64,000 nt of DNA from Bacteroidia bacterium (GTDB lineage: Bacteria > Bacteroidota > Bacteroidia > AKYH767-A > OLB10). Position 1 is the stretch's first letter, and each line of letters begins with the position of its first letter. The translations under genes were made by a program, and so were the position numbers. The stretch covers positions 1-64,000 of the forward strand of contig JADLBQ010000056.1 in the NCBI GenBank assembly GCA_020847635.1. Direction: 5' to 3'. A model generated the notes under the pieces. The model searched no databases and was not told where the DNA came from. It saw only the letters and a list, made by a program, of their open reading frames with translations. This document shows positions 38,104-51,059 of this stretch, one piece after another.

Positions 38104-38814
38104 ATGAAAGTTGAGATCTGGTCAGATGTGATGTGCCCATTTTGCTATTTAGGTAAAAAACATTTTGAGAAAGCTTTGCAACAGGTACCTTTTTCAAAAG
38201 AGGTTCAGGTAATTTGGAAAAGCTTTCAGCTGGATCCGTTACTTCCGGATGAGGGACTGACAATTTCAACAACAGCTTATCTGATTGATCGAAAGGGAAT
38301 GCCACACCAGCAACTTGAAACAATGATGGAGCATATACGCCAGTCCGGAATCCGGGCAGGAATTGATTTCCGTCAGGATATTTCAATTCCTGTAAATACA
38401 TTCAGCGCTCACCGGCTGATTCATTTTGCCCGGAAAAGCGGGAAAGATTCTGAAATGGAGGAAGCATTGTTTGAAGCACATTTTACAAAAGGTCAGAATG
38501 TTGGTAACCATGAAGAGCTGGTTACGCTGGCTGAAAAGATTGGTCTGAACAAAGCAGAAGTAACTGAATTTCTGAAAGGAACTGAACTTACTGATGAAGT
38601 CAGAGATGATATGATGGAAGCCAGGGATCTCGGAATTACCGGTGTTCCGTTTTTTGTTATTGACAGTAAATACACAGTTTCAGGAGCTCAGCCTGTAGAG
38701 GTTTTTGTGAGTGCGCTCTCAGAAACCTTCAGGGAAAGCCAAGCTGAACCGGGTGTAGATGGAAATGAAAGAAAGGATTTGTGCGGGGATGAAGAATGTG
38801 ACTATTCAGCCTGA
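38104..38814 (+). CDS. DsbA-family oxidoreductase (FrnE-like)
   Basis: A 236-residue protein with a thioredoxin fold interrupted by a helical insert. The active site is C-P-F-C (Cys11 and Cys14) in DVMCPFCYLG, and the cis-proline loop is GITGVPFFVID. There is no signal peptide, so like FrnE of other bacteria it acts in the cytoplasm, probably as a disulfide isomerase or oxidoreductase in oxidative stress. The C-terminus has two more cysteines (LCGDEEC). Confidence 0.9.
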   Translation: MKVEIWSDVMCPFCYLGKKHFEKALQQVPFSKEVQVIWKSFQLDPLLPDEGLTISTTAYLIDRKGMPHQQLETMMEHIRQSGIRAGIDFRQDISIPVNTFSAHRLIHFARKSGKDSEMEEALFEAHFTKGQNVGNHEELVTLAEKIGLNKAEVTEFLKGTELTDEVRDDMMEARDLGITGVPFFVIDSKYTVSGAQPVEVFVSALSETFRESQAEPGVDGNERKDLCGDEECDYSA

Positions 38815-39028
38815 CTAATGAAATTTCTGAGAACTCAATCAATTACTTTTAACAGAACCTTAAAATTTTTGGGATTCAATCGGCAAACCACCGGCATTTT
38901 TACTTTTAACCGACAGTTGTAAGTCTGTTTTGTTTCTAAACTTGCAGGGAATTGAGACAAGACTAATCCTTAACCTTATATTTCTTATTTTCAGCAAATT
39001 CAAATGAATCAAAGACGATCTACCTGAA

Positions 39029-39490
39029 ATGACAGGCTTTCAGTTATACCGGATACTTCTTGTTGTTCATGTCATATCAGCTATCCTGGGATTGGGGCCT
39101 GGGTTTATTATGATTTATGTAGTTACTAAAGCAAAGACCATGACCGAACTCAGGCATGCATATTTTATCCGGAACCGGCTACATAACTTTGTTATGGTGG
39201 GTGGAACGCTCTTGCTTCTAACCGGATTGGCAATGGGAGCAATGCGTCCGTATCTTTTTAACATGGGATGGTATGTGATCAGCCTGGTGCTGTTCCTGGT
39301 TGCATTGGGATTTGGCCCGGTTATCTTATCTCCAAGATCAAAACCAATAAAATCATTACTGAGCAATCATCCGGGAGATGATATACCGACCGAATATTTC
39401 CTGCTGGCAAAAAGACTGTTCTTCTATGAACGGATTGAGAATGTGATTTTCCTGGTAGTCATTGTTCTTATGGTATTAAAACCAGTTTAA
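39029..39490 (+). CDS. Small integral membrane protein (DUF2269-like)
   Basis: A 153-residue protein with four hydrophobic helices (about 5-30, 50-72, 80-102, 130-150). The first helix has the pattern RILLVVHVISAILGLGPGF with a His in the membrane, which is typical of DUF2269-like proteins that may bind heme or another cofactor. Function unknown. It stands upstream of the tandem DUF2249 gene. Confidence 0.6.
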   Translation: MTGFQLYRILLVVHVISAILGLGPGFIMIYVVTKAKTMTELRHAYFIRNRLHNFVMVGGTLLLLTGLAMGAMRPYLFNMGWYVISLVLFLVALGFGPVILSPRSKPIKSLLSNHPGDDIPTEYFLLAKRLFFYERIENVIFLVVIVLMVLKPV

Positions 39491-39574
39491 TATAAATAAA
39501 AGCCATACTGTTGTAGATTAGCACAAATATTTCAACCTGTTTAAAATTCAATTCTATTAAAAAAAACAATAATT

Positions 39575-40330
39575 ATGAGCCAAGTAAATATCCCGAAAGA
39601 AGAAATTGATGTTAGAGTTTATGTTCCAATTCAAAGGCATGAAATGCTGATCAAAATGTTTAAGGAATTACCGGTAAGAGAGAGTTTTATTTTTATCAAT
39701 GATCATGATCCCATCCCGTTATATTATGAGTTCCGTTCTATTTACGGAGATGTGGTAGGATGGGAATACCTGAACCGCGGTGGCCGGGAGTGGAAAGTAA
39801 AAGTAACTCGTACAGAAGAATCAAAAGGACGGGAGTTTGAAGGAATAGCAACCTTACTAGATCTGAGGAAGGCTGACCCGAAAGAGTGGAAACAAATTGT
39901 TTTTCACCGCTATGGAATGATGGAAGAAGGAACAACCATGGAGCTTATCGCACCGGAAGACCCGGTTGAAATTCACGGAATCTTTTTCCAAAAATTTGAG
40001 GGAAAGCATAAGTGGATTTATAAGAAAAAGGAAACCGGTGAGATTGTTGTTCATATTACCAAGCAGGATAACAGTGGGTTAGGTGATGATGGTTTCTCGG
40101 TAGTTAATGAGTTTGACATCAGACCCTATCCGCCTGCAGAACGGCATGAAATGTTTTACAAGGCTTTTGCAGATATTAAGCCGGGCGAAGCTTTTGAGTT
40201 TACCAATGACCACGACCCGAAACCACTCTACTATCAGATGGAAGCTGAAAGTAAAGAACCGTTTAAATGGGAATACATTGAAAAAGGTCCGGATGTGTGG
40301 AAAGTCAGGGTGATCAAAGTCAGGGAGTAA
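39575..40330 (+). CDS. Tandem DUF2249 protein
   Basis: A 251-residue protein made of two DUF2249 copies (about residues 8-75 and 178-250). Each copy has the invariant pattern RHEM, then F, then NDHDP and PLYY. In between is a short beta-rich section. DUF2249 is a TusA/SirA-like fold seen near nitrite, nitric oxide and hemerythrin genes; the copies here lack obvious catalytic cysteines. A role in metal or NO-related chemistry is an inference from family context. Confidence 0.85.
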   Translation: MSQVNIPKEEIDVRVYVPIQRHEMLIKMFKELPVRESFIFINDHDPIPLYYEFRSIYGDVVGWEYLNRGGREWKVKVTRTEESKGREFEGIATLLDLRKADPKEWKQIVFHRYGMMEEGTTMELIAPEDPVEIHGIFFQKFEGKHKWIYKKKETGEIVVHITKQDNSGLGDDGFSVVNEFDIRPYPPAERHEMFYKAFADIKPGEAFEFTNDHDPKPLYYQMEAESKEPFKWEYIEKGPDVWKVRVIKVRE

Positions 40331-40462
40331 AATAATCGGGGTTCCTGAAGTGTTATTTCATTATCTTTACCTTAGAGCAGGCAATGGGCTTGATTCCAAC
40401 AGGTTTCATCAGGCGGGTGATTACCATGCGTTCAAGTTAACTGAAAATAAATCTTAACAGAT

Positions 40463-40858
40463 ATGACAGAAAAATCAAACATTTCAACCCAGCTCCGGCC
40501 CGAAGGTGACCGGTTACTTAATGCCAGTCTTGTAGAAATGGATCTGAAAAAGTACCTCAGTCAGATCAAGCAGGAAACAATCTGGAAGGAAGGCAGCCAT
40601 AACTCAATTACCTTATTTAAGTCAGATACATTGCGAATTGTCCTGATTGGAATGCACCATGGAGCAGTTCTTAAAACTCATCAGGCAAAAGCCAATGTGA
40701 GCGTTCAGGTACTGGAAGGTGAAGTAACTTTTACAGCTGATGACCAGGAATTAAAGCTGCAGGCCAGCCAGATGGTAGCAATCCAGGCAAAAGTGCCCCA
40801 TAGTGTTAAAGCAGAAACAGAAAGCGCCATTCTGCTTACGGTTGCTGCATTGGGGTAG
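40463..40858 (+). CDS. Cupin-domain protein
   Basis: A 131-residue single beta-barrel cupin. The first cupin motif is weak (GMHHGAVLKTHQAKA) and the second reads LQASQMVAIQAKVPHSVKAE, with His residues at the places of metal ligands. Small cupins of this type bind a metal and have diverse or unknown functions. It stands alone after the DUF2249 gene. Confidence 0.8.
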   Translation: MTEKSNISTQLRPEGDRLLNASLVEMDLKKYLSQIKQETIWKEGSHNSITLFKSDTLRIVLIGMHHGAVLKTHQAKANVSVQVLEGEVTFTADDQELKLQASQMVAIQAKVPHSVKAETESAILLTVAALG

Positions 40859-43190: not shown

Positions 43191-43799
43191 TCAGTTGTGA
43201 AGGATACCAGGGTGATACCGTTTAACCAGTTGTAGTGAGTTTTTGTCAGTATGATGCATCTGAGCCCCGGTTGCAGCAAGTTTTAAAACCAAATCGGAAG
43301 TGTAACTGAAAGTACCATTGTCATGAAAGATAAAGATACTTTTGAATGAAATTGCTCTTGCCCGCTCAAACAAATACTTATTTTGTGATAAACCATACGT
43401 TTCAGATCGGGGGTCAGCATCAAATCGTAGTTTCTTATCAAACGCCTTTGCTGGGCTTCCTGCCAGTATAGCCAAACCTCTAGGTACTGCAAAACAACGC
43501 ATAACCTGCCCGTTCATTTTATCCCATAGAAGATAACCTACTTCATCATGAAACGGATCCATGGCTTCTTCACCATGACGCCAGGCTGTCATTTGATAGG
43601 TTAACCCATCCATGGTTTGTTGTCCGTTTTCAACAACCGGGATAGGTCTGAACCAGGCTTTTTCAAAATAACCGGTTTCAGAAATTTTATCATCCTTATT
43701 GTGATAAGAAATATCAATTCCGACATTACCTTCCCATTCACCAACAAGTGGAGTTAACGGGCCAAGCCTGCGTGGTCCTGCGATTGTCTTTTTTGCCAT
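43191..43799 (-). CDS. Nitrobindin-like heme-binding beta-barrel protein
   Basis: A 202-residue protein of the FABP/nitrobindin superfamily. The family signature GPLTPLVGEWEGN is near the N-terminus, followed by HDEVGYLLWD and a C-terminal LVKRYHPG whose His fits the place of the heme ligand. Nitrobindins bind ferric heme and interact with nitric oxide. I choose MAKKTIAGPRR as the start because the 21 residues before it are unlike the family. The gene lies downstream of the respiratory cluster on the same strand, which fits NO chemistry. Confidence 0.75.
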   Translation of the reverse strand: MAKKTIAGPRRLGPLTPLVGEWEGNVGIDISYHNKDDKISETGYFEKAWFRPIPVVENGQQTMDGLTYQMTAWRHGEEAMDPFHDEVGYLLWDKMNGQVMRCFAVPRGLAILAGSPAKAFDKKLRFDADPRSETYGLSQNKYLFERARAISFKSIFIFHDNGTFSYTSDLVLKLAATGAQMHHTDKNSLQLVKRYHPGILHN

Positions 43800-43896
43800 A
43801 GGTCTTTTGTTTTTAGTTATTTGGTTAAACAGGAAAGAATGATAAATGTTTGAAAAGACCAAAAGAAAACGGGTACTTCAACTTGCAACAGTTATA

Positions 43897-45846
43897 CTAA
43901 TTGCTGCCGGCTACTTCAAGTTTCCCCTCTTTCAGGATGACAAATGTACCATCTCCTTCCCGCAGCCTGAGATTTTTTAGCTGATATTGTTTTTCAGGAA
44001 ATGCAATTTCAGCAAACTCAACATCAACCCGGTCGGTAGCCGGGTTAAGCTGGGCATAAATAAACATTGCGATATCCTGCCTTAATCCTCTCGGGTCGTA
44101 AACCTTTTCAAAAAGAAGAGTTTGGTCAACAGATGAAAAAATTTTAAGACGAACCGAACTTCTTTTCTTTACAACCGGAGTACGGGCTTGCATGTGAGCA
44201 GCTGCAGAAGTAGATTGCTCATACTCCTGGGGTGTGGAGATGTATTTAAAAGTTACAATCAGTGTTTTTTCAGCCGGATTAAAGAATCTAACTGTGGTTC
44301 TGCTCAGTGGAATCATCAGCGCAAAGAATAAAGCCATGATTAATACGGAAAGAACCGGTTTTGCTTTTTCATGATCGGCAATTGAAAACTGTGCTTTTCT
44401 GATTTCTGTTTGAGTTGTGTCTTGTGAAAAAGCAAGGAGTTTTTCTTTGCTGTATTGGGTTAGAGTAAACAGCCTGACTTTAGAAGCATCATATTTCCGG
44501 GAGAATGTCGGGGCACGCTCCCTGAGAAATCGTTTGATTGTCCAGTTCTTACCAAAACGGTAATAGCAGTCTTCACAACTTAGAATGGCCACTTTATGAC
44601 TGTTGTTCTCCAGGATCTGTTGGACATCTTTTGGCATCACACTGCCGGTACACGGGACCTGATAATGAACCAGATTAAGCCCTTCCGGCAATTCGGGTGG
44701 CGGGAAGTAACTACAGCTGAAAAGGGTTACATTCGATTTGTTATCATTTGCTTTTAGAAGCAGCTCTGGAAAACCCGGAAAGCTGATTGCATGTTCATCG
44801 CACGAACCAATACAAATGCCACAGCCAACACATTTGTCGGGTGAGAGAATGGCCTTCCGTTCTCCGTTCCGGGTGAGCATATCAATGGCTTCATACGGGC
44901 AATCATAAGAGCAAAGGTTACAGGCATCGCATTTATCAAGATCAATATAAACCGGTGGATTATTTTTCCTTTTAAGGATATAAGGAATAATACACAGAAA
45001 GATGCCAGAGCCGATTAAAATAATCCAGTTTTGATTTACACTGAATAATTTCATCAGGTAGTAACCAAAATAGTAGTACCAATCGAATGTTGTTTGAATC
45101 GGGAGATTAGAAGACTGAGCCGGAGGATCACTCTGAACAGGGAAAATGATGGAGATCATACCTAATGCAATGAGAACATAAATCATCAGTTTTTTAGGAG
45201 GTACAATCTTAGGTTTTGAAATATTAAGTACATGAACCCAGATAACAATGACAGTAATGAGTGAAAATACAATATGACCGAATAATGCAACTTTAAAAAA
45301 GCCGCCAACAGTTGACAAATCATTTAATAAAAAAGCACCGGCAATTGACGGATCAAAAATCGGGAGGCTGGTAAATAGCTTGGCTGTCAGGTAGCCGGCC
45401 AGTTTTGCTTTCTGATCCCATACCAGGATAAAACCGGTAACCCCGATTATGATAACGACTAGGAAAGAGATAATCCCACTGATCCACGAAACCAGCCTTT
45501 TAAATTTTGAAGTAAACAAGGTATGAAGCAGATGAAGCAGAATAAAAATTACCAATAGATCAGAAGAATACCGGTGAATAGTCCGCATCCATCCGTTAAA
45601 CAGATTGTTCGACATGGCCTCAACCGAGTCCCAGGCATAACGTGGATTGATGTTATAGAAAATAAATATATAGATTCCCGAAATGCAGGCTACAATGAAC
45701 AGGAGCACGGAAATGCTGCCCAAGTTGTAGAGAGGGTTTAATTTTGTTGAATATATTTTCCCGAATACAGTTGAAAATTTTTGAAATAGCTGATGACCTT
45801 TTGTAGGCTCTTTTAAAGTCTTTGTTGCTTGCGTCTGTTTAACCAT
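43897..45846 (-). CDS. Cytochrome b - ferredoxin - MvhD-like fusion protein
   Basis: A 649-residue membrane protein. Residues 40-290 form a cytochrome b-like part with about six helices; H91/H105 and H191/H205 (each x13) are placed as ligands for two hemes. Two [4Fe-4S] motifs follow: C306, C309, C312, C316 and C339, C342, C345, C349. A segment with FSCSY, VPCTGSV and SCEDCYYRFG resembles MvhD, the iron-sulfur subunit that links hydrogenase to Hdr. One more helix (about 492-512) leads to a periplasmic tail of about 130 residues. Its stop region is 97 bases before the nitrobindin-like gene. Confidence 0.88.
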   Translation of the reverse strand: MVKQTQATKTLKEPTKGHQLFQKFSTVFGKIYSTKLNPLYNLGSISVLLFIVACISGIYIFIFYNINPRYAWDSVEAMSNNLFNGWMRTIHRYSSDLLVIFILLHLLHTLFTSKFKRLVSWISGIISFLVVIIIGVTGFILVWDQKAKLAGYLTAKLFTSLPIFDPSIAGAFLLNDLSTVGGFFKVALFGHIVFSLITVIVIWVHVLNISKPKIVPPKKLMIYVLIALGMISIIFPVQSDPPAQSSNLPIQTTFDWYYYFGYYLMKLFSVNQNWIILIGSGIFLCIIPYILKRKNNPPVYIDLDKCDACNLCSYDCPYEAIDMLTRNGERKAILSPDKCVGCGICIGSCDEHAISFPGFPELLLKANDNKSNVTLFSCSYFPPPELPEGLNLVHYQVPCTGSVMPKDVQQILENNSHKVAILSCEDCYYRFGKNWTIKRFLRERAPTFSRKYDASKVRLFTLTQYSKEKLLAFSQDTTQTEIRKAQFSIADHEKAKPVLSVLIMALFFALMIPLSRTTVRFFNPAEKTLIVTFKYISTPQEYEQSTSAAAHMQARTPVVKKRSSVRLKIFSSVDQTLLFEKVYDPRGLRQDIAMFIYAQLNPATDRVDVEFAEIAFPEKQYQLKNLRLREGDGTFVILKEGKLEVAGSN

Positions 45847-46603
45847 TCTGATTTTTTGTGATGAAAAACGATTTTATAAAAATCCGGGTGATTAGTAAAA
45901 TCATAAGAAGCCCGGCTGATGTTGAAATGATAAAGCGCCAATCAATCTTATATGTTCTTAAAACAGGATCGTAACCGAAGCAGCGCAGGTAAAACCCGTT
46001 AAACAGGCCCGGTCTTGTCTTTTCAGCCATAGCTTCCATTACTGCCAGCCTGATATCTTTTTTTGCCGGATTTAATCCATAAATATACCTTGAAATTCTG
46101 CCGGCCGGAGTTAAAACAATCAGGATTGCCGGATGATTATACTCACGGGTTGCAATATCAAAGTCATACTGATAGTCAACAGAAGCCATCAACTGCCGGA
46201 TCTGTTCTGAAGAAGCAGAAACAGTTTTCCAGCTGCTCCCGTTCATTTTCCACCGGCTTTCATAAAATGAAAGGTCTTCGGCTGTATCGGTACTGTCAAA
46301 TGAAAAACTAATCATAGTGAAATCCTTTCCAACGGTTCCCAGCTCATGGATCACGCTAAAGACTCCGTTACTGATTAAACCACAGAGAGAAGCACAGCGA
46401 GTATAAACCGGAGAGATGATGAGCGGCTTTTCTCCTAACAGTTGATACAGTTTGAACTCCTTTCCATTGGCATCAAACAGAGAAATATCAGCTACCCGCT
46501 GAGCAAGGTATTTCTTTTCATCAGGGAGATTGAAACCACAGTTGACTACCCAGGCTGACAAAATAAGCAGATACAAAGACCATTTATTACCAGAGCTGAA
46601 CAT
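45839..46603 (-). CDS. SCO1/SenC-family copper protein
   Basis: A 254-residue membrane-anchored thioredoxin-fold protein that inserts copper into the CuA site of subunit II. The copper ligands are Cys and Cys in TRCASLCGLI (C-x3-C) and His in YNHPAILIV. It has an N-terminal signal-like helix and a second helix near the C-terminus (about 220-245). It overlaps the cytochrome b fusion gene by eight bases, so the two are translated together. Confidence 0.9.
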   Translation of the reverse strand: MFSSGNKWSLYLLILSAWVVNCGFNLPDEKKYLAQRVADISLFDANGKEFKLYQLLGEKPLIISPVYTRCASLCGLISNGVFSVIHELGTVGKDFTMISFSFDSTDTAEDLSFYESRWKMNGSSWKTVSASSEQIRQLMASVDYQYDFDIATREYNHPAILIVLTPAGRISRYIYGLNPAKKDIRLAVMEAMAEKTRPGLFNGFYLRCFGYDPVLRTYKIDWRFIISTSAGLLMILLITRIFIKSFFITKNQNG

Positions 46604-46663: not shown

Positions 46664-48331
46664 TTAATTAACATTCCAGGTTGCTGCCAGCCATTTCCAG
46701 TTTAAGAAAAACAAGGCAATAAAGACCAGCAGGAAAATCATGGTAAGTGCAAGTGTCCCCGGAGCTTCAAATCCTTTATGAGCTTTTGCTGCTGGAGCCA
46801 ATGGTGAGATAGTCAGCTGCATATCTTCTTTGCTGTTTATTTTTGGTCCGATGGTAACTGAAAAAACGACAATCAGAATCCAAATGAGTGTTGCCAGAAA
46901 GGCAAGTGTTCCACCAATCATCATCAGCGCCCAGAAGAAATCAACTGCCGGATTGAAATTATAAGTAAAGGGGCCACCTGAGAAGGTAGAGTCCCAGTGT
47001 CTGCGGGGAACTCCCAGCTGACCCAGTACAATCATGGAAATGGAAAGCAGTGCAATTCCGATAAAGAAAAGCCAGGGTTGCCACTGTGCCCATTTAAATC
47101 CGACAATCTTTCTTCTGAAAATTAACGGAATCAGGTAATATGTAATCCCCATAAAGGTAAGGGTTGTTCCGATTACAACTGTTCCTTTAAAGTGGCCAGG
47201 GATAGCAATGGTGTTATGCACAATAATATTGGTTTGCTCCATTCCGAAGATGACTCCGGTTGTTCCGCCAATAAACCCAAAACCAATGACGGCCAGGATG
47301 ATTGCTGAAAAGGCCGGGTTGCTCCAGGGTGCTTTTGAGAGCCATTGAAATAATCCTTTGTTATATCCCCATCTCCTCTGTGCTGATTCAAACGAGGAAG
47401 GAACTGCAAAAGCATGAATCATAGACGCCAGAACAGCAAGATACATCGCATAACTTGTATTCCACACTTTCCAAGCACTACTGACTCCCGGGTCGGTAAG
47501 CAGGTGATGAGCAGAGGCCAGGCAGATAAAAAGAATGTATAATACAAAAGCTGAACGTGATACTCTTTCGTTGATAGAAGTTCCGCCAACAGTTAGAAAT
47601 GAAACCATATACCAGATTGAAACCATAGCGGCAACATTGATCTGTTGGGATGAATGACCTAACCCCCACCAGATCAGTTTATACATTGCCGGATCAACAT
47701 TTTCAATGAGCCCAAGTGACCAGAGGAAAGTCGGGATGTAGATAATCGCCCCGGTTGCCAGTGTAATCACGGCAATGATAGCAGCTGTCATTAACCCATA
47801 GGTGAAAAGAGGCAAGGTCTGATCAAAAGCTTTTTCGCGTTTGGCCAGCATCAGGTTACCAAAAAACAGAATCACTGCAAGTAATGCTCCTACGGCAAAC
47901 AAGATGATTCCCAGATAATAGAGCGGATGTGCTTTGAGTGGAGTGTAGGAAGTCAGCATAACGTCTGCCTTACCCATCAATATGATGATGTTTGATAAGA
48001 CCAGCCCAGCAGCCATCAGGATAAAGGCTATCCATCCTGACCGGGGGGAACAAAAGCGGGTGTTCAATACAACCGTAGAGCCAAAATATAGTCCGGCAAT
48101 CTCAAAGAAAATAATCCAGAAAATTAATGCATTTAAACCATGAAACGTGACTAAACGGTAATACCATTCAGCACCCAGCAGGTGTACAGGCTGGTAACGG
48201 GTAAAGACCAGCAGCAGAGCTGCTGTAACTGCAAGCAGTAATGAAATAACTGCAAAGACAGCATTGTAACGAATAAGTTTTTCTGACTGTAAGTCAACTT
48301 TAAATCCTGTGATATCGCAAGTTCTGAACAT
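46664..48331 (-). CDS. Divergent heme-copper oxidase subunit I
   Basis: A 555-residue membrane protein with about 13 helices, closest in motifs to B-type (ba3-like) enzymes. Expected ligands are His64 (low-spin heme), His226 and the pair His275-His276 (CuB) and His380 (high-spin heme). Two key positions differ: Gln230 stands where oxygen reductases carry the Tyr cross-linked to a CuB His, and Lys382 stands where the second low-spin heme His is expected (GHFK instead of GHFH). NO reductases lack the Tyr, so NO may be the substrate. It follows subunit II by 18 bases. Confidence 0.9.
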   Translation of the reverse strand: MFRTCDITGFKVDLQSEKLIRYNAVFAVISLLLAVTAALLLVFTRYQPVHLLGAEWYYRLVTFHGLNALIFWIIFFEIAGLYFGSTVVLNTRFCSPRSGWIAFILMAAGLVLSNIIILMGKADVMLTSYTPLKAHPLYYLGIILFAVGALLAVILFFGNLMLAKREKAFDQTLPLFTYGLMTAAIIAVITLATGAIIYIPTFLWSLGLIENVDPAMYKLIWWGLGHSSQQINVAAMVSIWYMVSFLTVGGTSINERVSRSAFVLYILFICLASAHHLLTDPGVSSAWKVWNTSYAMYLAVLASMIHAFAVPSSFESAQRRWGYNKGLFQWLSKAPWSNPAFSAIILAVIGFGFIGGTTGVIFGMEQTNIIVHNTIAIPGHFKGTVVIGTTLTFMGITYYLIPLIFRRKIVGFKWAQWQPWLFFIGIALLSISMIVLGQLGVPRRHWDSTFSGGPFTYNFNPAVDFFWALMMIGGTLAFLATLIWILIVVFSVTIGPKINSKEDMQLTISPLAPAAKAHKGFEAPGTLALTMIFLLVFIALFFLNWKWLAATWNVN

Positions 48332-48349: not shown

Positions 48350-49273
48350 TTAGTCTTTTAAGGTTTTTATAAAAGAAATAACGTAATCAATTTCTTCGTC
48401 TGTTAATGGTAAAGCAGGCATGAGAGCAGACTCAAAGCCAACAGTAATTTTCTTCTGGGGATCAAAAATAGATTCTCGGATGTATTCATCATTTACTGTA
48501 ACTGTTAGTTTATTGCCGTTCTCAGTTACCTGTTCTTCTTTACCATAAATGCCGTTCCATGCCGGAGCAATCAGGCTGCTCCCGTCTGTTTTGTGGCAGG
48601 CAGCACATCCTTTCAACGTGTAGATCTGTTCACCCAAAATGGCTTTTTCTTCTTCTGTCAGCGGTGCTGAAGATGACTTCTGAGGAAGCGGGTCCGGAGC
48701 TTTTTTCAGGATTTCGTAACCATAAAGCTTAAGGTCAGCATCCTGTTCAATTACCACAATCTTACCGATCATGGTATGGTGACCGATTCCGCAGAACTCA
48801 TTACAGATTATTTTGTATTCACCGGCTTCGGTTGGTTTAAACTCCAGCACATAATCATAAAAGGGATATACCTGAAAGTTCATGTTGACCGGCTGAATGG
48901 AAAACCCGTGAACTATGTCTCTTGAAGAAATATGAAATTTATAGGACTGGTCCTTTTCAAGAACCAGAACCGGGCTCCACCGCCACATCTCAGCCAGAAT
49001 AAAAACATCGCTGTTTGGCTGAGGACGAACAACAGGAATTCCATTATCAGAGCCTACCATGTTTTGCCGGATATAGGCTTCACTGAGTTTTGCAAATTCT
49101 GCTGTACTGGTTTTGTAAGTTGTGCTGGATGGATTTTGCTTCCCATAAACATGCCACATAATCATCCAGATAAACAGGATGATGCACAGAACAAGGGAAA
49201 TGGCCATCCACATTTTTTCATCTTTGGATACTTTGGTTTCGTACCATCCTTCTGCCGGTTGGAATAAGCTCAT
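48350..49273 (-). CDS. Oxidase subunit II with CuA and cytochrome c domains
   Basis: A 307-residue protein that receives electrons for subunit I. One N-terminal helix (about 22-44) anchors it. The CuA ligands are complete: His122, Cys157, Glu159, Cys161, His165 and Met168, with spacing as in ba3 oxidases. After a linker follows a cytochrome c domain with C223-x2-C226-H227 and the probable axial Met285. So donors such as a c-type cytochrome or the cupredoxin may feed it. It lies between the small subunit and subunit I. Confidence 0.93.
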   Translation of the reverse strand: MSLFQPAEGWYETKVSKDEKMWMAISLVLCIILFIWMIMWHVYGKQNPSSTTYKTSTAEFAKLSEAYIRQNMVGSDNGIPVVRPQPNSDVFILAEMWRWSPVLVLEKDQSYKFHISSRDIVHGFSIQPVNMNFQVYPFYDYVLEFKPTEAGEYKIICNEFCGIGHHTMIGKIVVIEQDADLKLYGYEILKKAPDPLPQKSSSAPLTEEEKAILGEQIYTLKGCAACHKTDGSSLIAPAWNGIYGKEEQVTENGNKLTVTVNDEYIRESIFDPQKKITVGFESALMPALPLTDEEIDYVISFIKTLKD

Positions 49274-49298: not shown

Positions 49299-49484
49299 TT
49301 ATTTTATTAGTGTTTGCTTTAGTTCTTCAGGAATTGCCGGAAGATTTGATAATTCCATAACCCCCCATAAGAGATAGAAAATAGCATAAATGGTAATCCC
49401 AAGTGCCATTAATAGCATATAGTCGTCCATAATCATTCTCCCGAAAGTCATTTTCTTGTTTTCTGATTGTTGGTCGTTTTCCAT
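49299..49484 (-). CDS. Small membrane subunit of the oxidase
   Basis: A 61-residue protein with a charged N-terminus and one membrane helix (about 21-42). It is the first gene of the cluster and lies 25 bases before subunit II. Its size and place fit the tiny helix subunits (IIa-like) of ba3-type oxidases. Sequence similarity to a specific family cannot be claimed. Confidence 0.7.
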   Translation of the reverse strand: MENDQQSENKKMTFGRMIMDDYMLLMALGITIYAIFYLLWGVMELSNLPAIPEELKQTLIK

Positions 49485-49575: not shown

Positions 49576-50334
49576 TTAATTTGATGTACCATTAATTACG
49601 TTTTCGTATTTTTTTGAATAGGATTTCTGATTTTCACCGGTTGTATGGATACCGGCAATAAATTGCAGCTTTAATTGGTTGATGAAATTAAACTTCCTGC
49701 CATTGCAGTTTAGAAGTCCTTCTCTTTCAAAATCTTTCAGTGTTTTTGAGACTTGTTCTTTAGTTGTTCCCGTAAGATCAGCAATGTCCTGCCTGCTCAG
49801 ATCAATACTGAAAACAGTGCTGTTTTCTTCTTTCAGGTAAATAGCAACCAGCATCAATAATGCTTCAGCAATCTTTTCACGAACTTTTTTGTGGGCCAGG
49901 CTGATAGCACTTTGTCTGAGCTGGTTTAGTTCTACTAAAAACAGATTCCTAATTTGCCGCCTCAGTAACAGATTGCTTTGTGTGATATTGTCAAAAACCC
50001 GGTTGGGGACATAACAATAAATGACATCCGACAAAGCAGTTACGGTTCCGGGATGTCGGCTCTGCTCAGTATCCATACGGTAACCGAATACGGAACCGGT
50101 TCCTGAAATCCTGAACAGGTAGGGTTTGTTATTTCTCCCGGTTAACACTGTTTTCAGAACTCCTTTTTTAATAAAATAAATTCCTTCAACCGGATCTCCT
50201 TCAGTAACCAGCCGCTGGCCTCGCTGAAGGAGTTTAGTGAATTTAAAGGCACTGATAGTCATCAAGGTTGGTTCATCACAACTCTCAAGTACAGAGCAAC
50301 CTCGCGCTTTACAGGTTAAACAATCGTGCATCAT
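49576..50334 (-). CDS. Crp/Fnr-family regulator with four N-terminal cysteines
   Basis: A 252-residue transcription factor with a cyclic-nucleotide-binding-like sensor domain and a C-terminal winged helix (SRQDIADLTGTTKEQVSKTLK, about 180-200). The N-terminus has Cys5, Cys8, Cys13 and Cys19 in a pattern that could hold an iron-sulfur cluster, as in FNR-type sensors of oxygen or NO. Being next to and on the same strand as the oxidase cluster, it is the likely local regulator. Confidence 0.88.
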   Translation of the reverse strand: MMHDCLTCKARGCSVLESCDEPTLMTISAFKFTKLLQRGQRLVTEGDPVEGIYFIKKGVLKTVLTGRNNKPYLFRISGTGSVFGYRMDTEQSRHPGTVTALSDVIYCYVPNRVFDNITQSNLLLRRQIRNLFLVELNQLRQSAISLAHKKVREKIAEALLMLVAIYLKEENSTVFSIDLSRQDIADLTGTTKEQVSKTLKDFEREGLLNCNGRKFNFINQLKLQFIAGIHTTGENQKSYSKKYENVINGTSN

Positions 50335-50495: not shown

Positions 50496-51059
50496 TTAAC
50501 TGTTTTGAGTCTGATCCTGGCTGACGATGTCAGCATAATCAAAACCGGCTCTGGCTAAAGTTCGCTTAGCTACTTCAAGTGCATAGCTTGCTTCATTAAA
50601 AGGATGAACCGGTACTTCAGTAGCTTTTCCCAGTTCTTCCAGCAGTGCTTCGGTTTCTCCGGCAGTAAGTTTTTCACAGATATCATACATGCCTCCGGGT
50701 TCCTCTTCCAGTAAGTCATGCTTTTCGAGGACATGACGGATTACTTTAATTACTTCTTCTGTAGGAGGAACGACCATCAGTGAAGTAATTGCCCCATGAT
50801 CAAGTTTGAGCCTAGCTGCTAATGGAATGGGTTGATTGCCATTGGCACGCTGAGCTGCCGGAAACAAAACCTTTTCTTCCATTTTTATATGCTTAAGTAA
50901 GCCGGTACGGAACTGATGGTAAAGTTCCGGATCCACAAAACCCGGAGTTGCAGTTGCCTTATCCAGCAGTGCCTCCAGCCGATGATGGTCTTCAGTAAAA
51001 AAAGTATAAAGCGACTTATTCAATTCTCTTTTTGTGTGAATGATGAATCCAGGCACCAA
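50496..51059 (-). CDS. Hemerythrin-domain protein
   Basis: A 187-residue four-helix bundle with a di-iron site. Ligand-type residues are visible: His in TEDHHRLEALL, His and Glu in LLKHIKMEEKVLFP, His in LDHGAI and His/Glu in LEKHDLLEEEPGG. Such proteins bind oxygen or NO or repair iron-sulfur clusters damaged by them (RIC/YtfE type). Its place beside the regulator and the oxidase cluster fits NO or oxygen stress. Confidence 0.9.
   Translation of the reverse strand: MVPGFIIHTKRELNKSLYTFFTEDHHRLEALLDKATATPGFVDPELYHQFRTGLLKHIKMEEKVLFPAAQRANGNQPIPLAARLKLDHGAITSLMVVPPTEEVIKVIRHVLEKHDLLEEEPGGMYDICEKLTAGETEALLEELGKATEVPVHPFNEASYALEVAKRTLARAGFDYADIVSQDQTQNS

Follow-up and report, generated by a model that had tools for sequence, protein, structure and literature searches.

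A bc-family cytochrome b fused to ferredoxin and MvhD-like domains: a possible electron-transfer partner of an eNOR-type nitric oxide reductase

The window, i.e., the whole stretch of 64,000 nucleotides analyzed here, encodes a fusion protein, termed CYB in the following, which is a cytochrome b of the bc family remodeled by the addition of Fe-S domains and a possible partner of a known family of nitric oxide reductases. As judged from its sequence and from those of its homologs, CYB has the residues needed to ligate two b hemes and two 4Fe-4S clusters, a core of helices A–F, and a nearly fixed place in its operon. We tentatively propose that CYB could be a dedicated transmembrane electron-transfer partner of the eNOR-type nitric oxide reductase, and we put the probability of this reading at roughly 0.4; more broadly, the protein probably either supplies eNOR with electrons or reduces the copper that this enzyme needs. 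A first-pass annotation of the same DNA had seen in the fusion a connection between hydrogenase/Hdr-type electron bifurcation and a terminal oxidase. The fusion itself is real, conserved, and operon-linked to a heme-copper reductase, whereas the O2 oxidase and the Hdr/hydrogenase link were not supported. The features on which this analysis is based are compiled in Table 1.

Table 1. CYB, its domains, and neighboring genes, with positions in the window.
Feature	Position	Strand	Evidence or remark
CYB, cytochrome b – 8Fe ferredoxin – MvhD-like – TM – periplasmic tail fusion	43897..45846	minus	649-aa ORF
CYB cytochrome b N-terminal domain, helices A–D, residues 30–210	45217..45759	minus	Pfam PF00033, 5e-19
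CYB shortened cytochrome b C-terminal domain, helices E and F, residues 212–296	44959..45213	minus	hhalign, Foldseek
CYB 8Fe ferredoxin domain, residues 299–355	44782..44952	minus	Pfam, two Fer4 motifs
CYB MvhD/FlpD-like domain, residues 370–477	44416..44739	minus	Pfam PF02662, Cys counts
CYB last TM helix and periplasmic beta-rich tail, residues 490–649	43900..44379	minus	AlphaFold2 model
SCO1/SenC copper-chaperone-like protein, CxxxC	45839..46603	minus	Pfam PF02630, alignment
Heme-copper reductase subunit I, B-family relative, eNOR-type, GHSSQQ	46664..48331	minus	Pfam, alignment
Subunit II, CuA domain (CNEFCGIGHHTM) and C-terminal cytochrome c domain	48350..49273	minus	Pfam COX2, Cytochrom_C
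61-aa single-helix membrane protein, directly upstream of subunit II	49299..49484	minus	overlooked in the first-pass annotation
Crp/Fnr-family regulator	49576..50334	minus	Pfam; homologs precede the operon at about 35 loci
THAP4/nitrobindin-like heme-binding beta-barrel protein	43191..43862	minus	Pfam PF08768, 2e-18; 34 bases downstream of CYB
Gene for a hemerythrin-domain protein, upstream of the Crp/Fnr-family regulator	50496..51059	minus	homologs at 5 other loci
DsbA-like, DUF2269, double DUF2249, and cupin genes	38104..40858	plus	

The di-heme cytochrome b, the two 4Fe-4S motifs, the MvhD-like domain, and the tail lie in a single chain, as had been noticed before, and the open reading frame, the Pfam matches, and the AlphaFold2 model agree on this. 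The model, for which 71 homologs were used as input, has a mean pLDDT of 90.7 and a pTM of 0.89, and in it the cytochrome b part forms six helices, followed by a head of Fe-S and alpha-beta elements, a transmembrane helix (about residues 497–516), and a beta-rich tail. From the topology of cytochromes b, it can be expected that the head faces the inside and the tail the outside. An artefact or a fusion created by a frameshift was ruled out by 71 intact homologs. Conservation was counted in an alignment of 71 sequences from several phyla, and since the four heme-ligating histidines and the eight ferredoxin cysteines are found in 71/71 sequences across these phyla, the architecture is not a product of chance. 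In the MAGs OLB10 (L038/L076) and OLB11 (L088), the CYB gene is broken into two or more frames, which would represent either decay or an assembly error.

In the cytochrome b part, 13 residues separate H91 from H105 and H191 from H205, just as the first reading of the sequence had stated, and by analogy with bc1, H91/H191 and H105/H205 would be the two heme-ligating pairs; the pattern of bc complexes, with two bis-His pairs in helices B and D, is thus present. The earlier statement that there is no C-terminal cytochrome b domain was wrong: a shortened version exists, made up of helix E, a PEWY-like loop, and helix F. Residues 212–300, including FPVQSDPPAQSSNLPIQTTFDWYYYFGYYLMKLF, match the stretch from helix E across the PEWY loop to helix F in bc-type cytochromes b of this phylum with an hhalign probability of 93 (E 4e-8), and the reversed sequence reached a probability of 0.3. 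A Pfam search with the E–F segment by itself gave no match, but the profile comparison did find the similarity, and the top PDB matches in Foldseek were entire cytochrome b chains that aligned over about 285 columns. The PEWY-like loop reads TFDWYY in CYB and xDWY/F/W-Y across the homologs, with the acidic residue D255 retained in 70/71 and Y258 in 67/71 sequences. Helices beyond F are absent, and the ferredoxin domain stands in their place. In a phylogenetic tree, CYB forms a single clade with a support of 100/100 that is separate from the bc and b6 cytochromes b of the phylum. As already noted in the first inspection, the operon has no Rieske protein; neither a Rieske nor a cytochrome c1/f gene was found in the operon of the window or among the recurrent neighbors of CYB loci.

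The two C-x2-C-x2-C-x3-C clusters that follow are formed by C306/309/312/316 and C339/342/345/349, and the loss of these cysteines in close relatives, which had been named as an observation that would refute the first reading, was not seen. For the MvhD-like segment, one qualification is needed. The Pfam FlpD/MvhD match is real (residues 395–477, E 4e-5, slightly above the curated cut-off), and C378, C399, and C424 are kept in 69–70 of the 71 sequences, but the fourth cysteine, C427, is present in only 50/71, being lost solely in a distant group; some sequences of this group have a loop cysteine as a substitute, and 11 have neither. A 2Fe-2S cluster is thus plausible in the CYB of the window and uncertain in the distant group. 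In the periplasmic tail, M552 and G587 are invariant and H551 occurs in 63/71 sequences. Conserved cysteines are absent from the tail, and none of the Pfam or PDB families matched it. Its assignment to FixG_C, the Ig-like domain of CcoG, was not supported, with an hhalign probability of 0.3 that lies below the value of 4.4 for the reversed control.

The gene next to CYB had been described as an oxidase gene, which needs to be corrected, as subunit I is eNOR-like and has a glutamine (H-S-S-Q-Q) in place of the cross-linked tyrosine of O2 reductases. The best PDB match of subunit I is the Thermus ba3 oxidase (E 1e-45), and in the alignment, the glutamine, four residues after the CuB histidine, sits in the column of the cross-linked ba3 tyrosine (GHSSQQ versus GHPIVY). 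A glutamine that replaces this tyrosine has been published as the hallmark of eNOR (PMC8756737), and for this group, which was earlier named ba3-a1 in Alphaproteobacteria, the absence of the tyrosine and an SCO gene in the operon have been described (PMC6431628; PMC8879329). The H-x-x-Q-Q motif was found in 75 of 78 CYB-linked subunit I sequences, the other three having been missed by the search pattern, and the CuA motif C-x3-C-x3-H-x2-M in 73/73 subunit II sequences. The terminal enzyme is therefore probably an eNOR that reduces NO to N2O, an assignment based on one residue, homology, and the gene neighborhood. In other genomes, a nirS-type cytochrome cd1 gene lies within about 10 kb at about 20 of 142 loci; the host genome has a clade II NosZ, and NirK and NirS are absent from it. 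eNOR-type nitric oxide reductases are often misannotated as cytochrome oxidases. At five loci (L145–L147, L149, and L150), we came across another group of heme-copper reductases that has H-x3-G (WYFLTHVVGG) at the tyrosine site and no cytochrome b fusion, and at several loci of the distant group (L042, L045, L097, L104, and others), an extra heme-copper-type membrane protein gene of about 470 aa without an NCBIfam match precedes subunit II.

With the terminal enzyme being eNOR-like, a coupling of a hydrogenase/Hdr-type bifurcating system via MvhD to quinone and an O2-reducing oxidase, as first suggested, is very improbable. It is true that the MvhD-like domain is real and that the order of ferredoxin and MvhD resembles the C-terminus of HdrA2. 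However, in none of 61 genomes (the host and 60 relatives) did a protein reach the HdrA2 cut-off, so the partner for the proposed bifurcation is missing, and in all five CYB-bearing genomes among the 61, CYB itself was the top match to HdrA2. Without HdrA in the host or its relatives, a classical Hdr/hydrogenase bifurcation is therefore unlikely, and the MvhD domain of CYB may rather serve as an adaptor for docking or electron entry than as a part of an Hdr bifurcating complex.

The SCO gene overlaps the fusion gene by exactly 8 bases, which confirms the earlier observation, and the same is seen in several relatives. The first gene of the operon codes for the 61-aa protein, and a counterpart with the pattern MD(D/N)..LLL.LG....Y..WG..E precedes subunit II at almost all of the loci examined. 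ba3-type oxidases possess a small subunit, and the 61-aa protein may be a small subunit of the eNOR-like enzyme; a subunit of this kind is the subject of PMC3128077. The nitrobindin-like gene was discarded as a conserved operon member, as no homolog was found at other eNOR loci. A DUF2249 homolog is also found near eNOR at one other locus (L047). In four other loci, a gene resembling 2-oxoacid:ferredoxin oxidoreductase, named by eye, shares the stretch with eNOR and is a candidate ferredoxin source. Two regulatory assignments did not stand: matches to an FNR box upstream of the operon occurred at chance level (9 found, 6.5 expected), and a neighbor at 35 loci is an Rrf2 protein, yet it remains far below the cut-off for NsrR.

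A search for the same domain order and neighborhood across genomes, as had been recommended, confirmed 250 candidate loci, and the fusion is thus no oddity. The loci were analyzed for the best 80 of the 250 confirmed relatives, which include records of Bacteroidota, Kapaibacteria, Aquificota, Calditrichota, Verrucomicrobiota, Myxococcota, Planctomycetota, and Pseudomonadota. At 69 of these 80 loci, subunit II, subunit I, SCO, and CYB follow each other on one strand; among the other 11, eight are cut by contig ends, one has a divergent arrangement, and two have CYB without eNOR (L105 and L127, in which the contig runs on past CYB, still without eNOR genes nearby). One contig labeled as Bathyarchaeota (L093) has a CYB gene close to that of the Aquificota MAG L092 and is likely mis-binned.

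The co-occurrence of CYB with eNOR was followed at several levels. Across 61 relatives, CYB is confined to five genomes, and exactly these have a strong match to subunit I (80% or more identity). In 396 genomes of the phylum, subunit I with at least 53% identity was found in eight, with CYB in 8/8, and subunit I with 41–44% identity in seven, with CYB in none of the six that were read; five of these six have H-x3-G in place of the glutamine. In a second phylum, CYB was present at 30/30 eNOR loci read, 27 times downstream and three times divergent. In Pseudomonadota, CYB is optional: 11 of 20 eNOR loci have it, six are complete without it, and three are cut. The Pseudomonadota loci L227, L237, L238, L239, L240, and L242 have SCO and no CYB, and nirS-type genes adjoin L227, L237, and L238. 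The distance matrices of 63 loci gave correlations of r=0.965 for CYB and subunit I and of r=0.980, the highest value, for CYB and SCO, whereby common descent by itself raises such values. A Defluviimonas plasmid carries, one after another, the genes for subunit II, subunit I, heme O synthase, SCO, CYB, the tail as a separate gene, and hemerythrin; the public annotation lists CYB as a "cytochrome b N-terminal domain-containing protein" and subunit I as a "cbb3-type cytochrome c oxidase subunit I".

If CYB is the electron-transfer partner of eNOR, electrons would enter at the cytoplasmic side from a low-potential carrier, such as a ferredoxin or flavoprotein docked on the 8Fe/MvhD head, and would traverse the membrane via hemes bH and bL. 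At the periplasmic face, they could be used at a quinone-type site or handed to CuA of subunit II, and they would then serve the reduction of NO to N2O by eNOR. Several points have to be held against this. The outward passage of low-potential electrons would waste membrane potential, and the cytochrome c domain already fused to subunit II in the close group suggests that a cytochrome c is the donor. The six complete Pseudomonadota loci have no CYB nearby, and therefore eNOR can work without it. The absence of NirK and NirS from the host and the narrow basis of the eNOR assignment also count against this reading.

The main rival is an assembly role, which we regard as less probable. CcoG, a Cu(II) reductase whose gene follows immediately on those of the cbb3 oxidase, combines a membrane part and two 4Fe-4S clusters with an Ig-like domain at its C-terminus in the periplasm (PMC7558416). 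CYB shares this general plan and directly follows SCO, its distances correlate best with those of SCO, and in Defluviimonas it adjoins two maturation genes, so that cytoplasmic electrons might pass through the 8Fe part and the b hemes and, during the assembly of eNOR, reduce Cu(II) or the disulfides of SCO or CuA at the periplasmic face. However, the tail has no detectable sequence relationship to the Ig domain of CcoG, and a cytochrome b core of the eight-helix type with a conserved PEWY-like loop exceeds the needs of a copper reductase. Furthermore, eNOR loci with SCO but without CYB exist, and at four loci (L092, L210, L211, and L215), CYB is divergent on the subunit II side, away from SCO. 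Either as electron partner or as assembly reductase, CYB would explain how eNOR is supplied, the cytochrome b–8Fe–MvhD fusion would be a second marker gene for NO reducers in genomes, and a bc-family cytochrome b would have been rebuilt without a Rieske protein.

Two other readings let electrons flow inward, and we consider both improbable. In the first, menaquinol would be oxidized at the DWYY site without a Rieske protein, and one electron would go to eNOR, while the other would pass bL, bH, the 8Fe part, and MvhD to a low-potential acceptor in the cytoplasm. The retention of D255 and Y258 on the P-side, the fused Fe-S chain, which is predicted to lie in the cytoplasm, and the availability of NO as a strong oxidant agree with this, and if true, a Rieske-free bc-type cytochrome b would generate low-potential cytoplasmic reductant in many bacterial phyla. 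On the other hand, a high-potential Rieske-like cluster is lacking, the tail has no conserved cysteine, the fourth MvhD cysteine is absent in about 30% of the sequences, and neither the host nor its relatives have HdrA. In the second, CYB would be the arm of a NarI-like redox loop that oxidizes quinol at the periplasmic side and sends both electrons inward to a cytoplasmic acceptor, generating membrane potential, with eNOR being merely co-regulated. This would fit the order of hemes and Fe-S clusters and the quinone-type motif on the P-side, but the conserved operon has no cytoplasmic reductase, and CYB is tied to a CuA enzyme that faces the periplasm.

In the open papers searched, we found no well-described family with the same architecture and a known reaction, although prior mention is possible in the main eNOR literature. 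The window shares the glutamine subunit I, the CuA subunit II, and the SCO gene in the operon with eNOR (ba3-a1), for which these open papers describe subunits I and II and SCO, but not CYB or the 61-aa gene. Among the NCBIfam families, the ExtP b-type cytochrome (NF040969) matches the cytochrome b part best, with 92.7 bits, far below the cut-off of 290 bits, and ExtP has no Fe-S part. Like HdrA2 and the MvhD (FlpD) module of heterodisulfide reductase complexes, CYB has an 8Fe ferredoxin followed by a FlpD-type domain, but it lacks the FAD/HdrA body, is membrane-bound, has fewer FlpD cysteines, and has no Hdr partner in the genome. With CcoG/FixG/RdxA, it has in common a membrane part, two 4Fe-4S motifs, a transmembrane helix followed by a periplasmic beta domain, and the position immediately behind heme-copper reductase genes, whereas its membrane domain is a cytochrome b and not of the NapH type, and its tail has no detectable homology to FixG_C. 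With the cytochrome b of bc1/b6f complexes (PF00033; PDB 9g9t_A, 4ogq_A), finally, CYB shares helices A–D, the two bis-His pairs, helix E, a PEWY-type loop, and helix F, but its operon is without Rieske and cytochrome c1/f genes, PEWY is changed to xDWY/F/W-Y, and helix F is followed by the 8Fe ferredoxin and MvhD domains.
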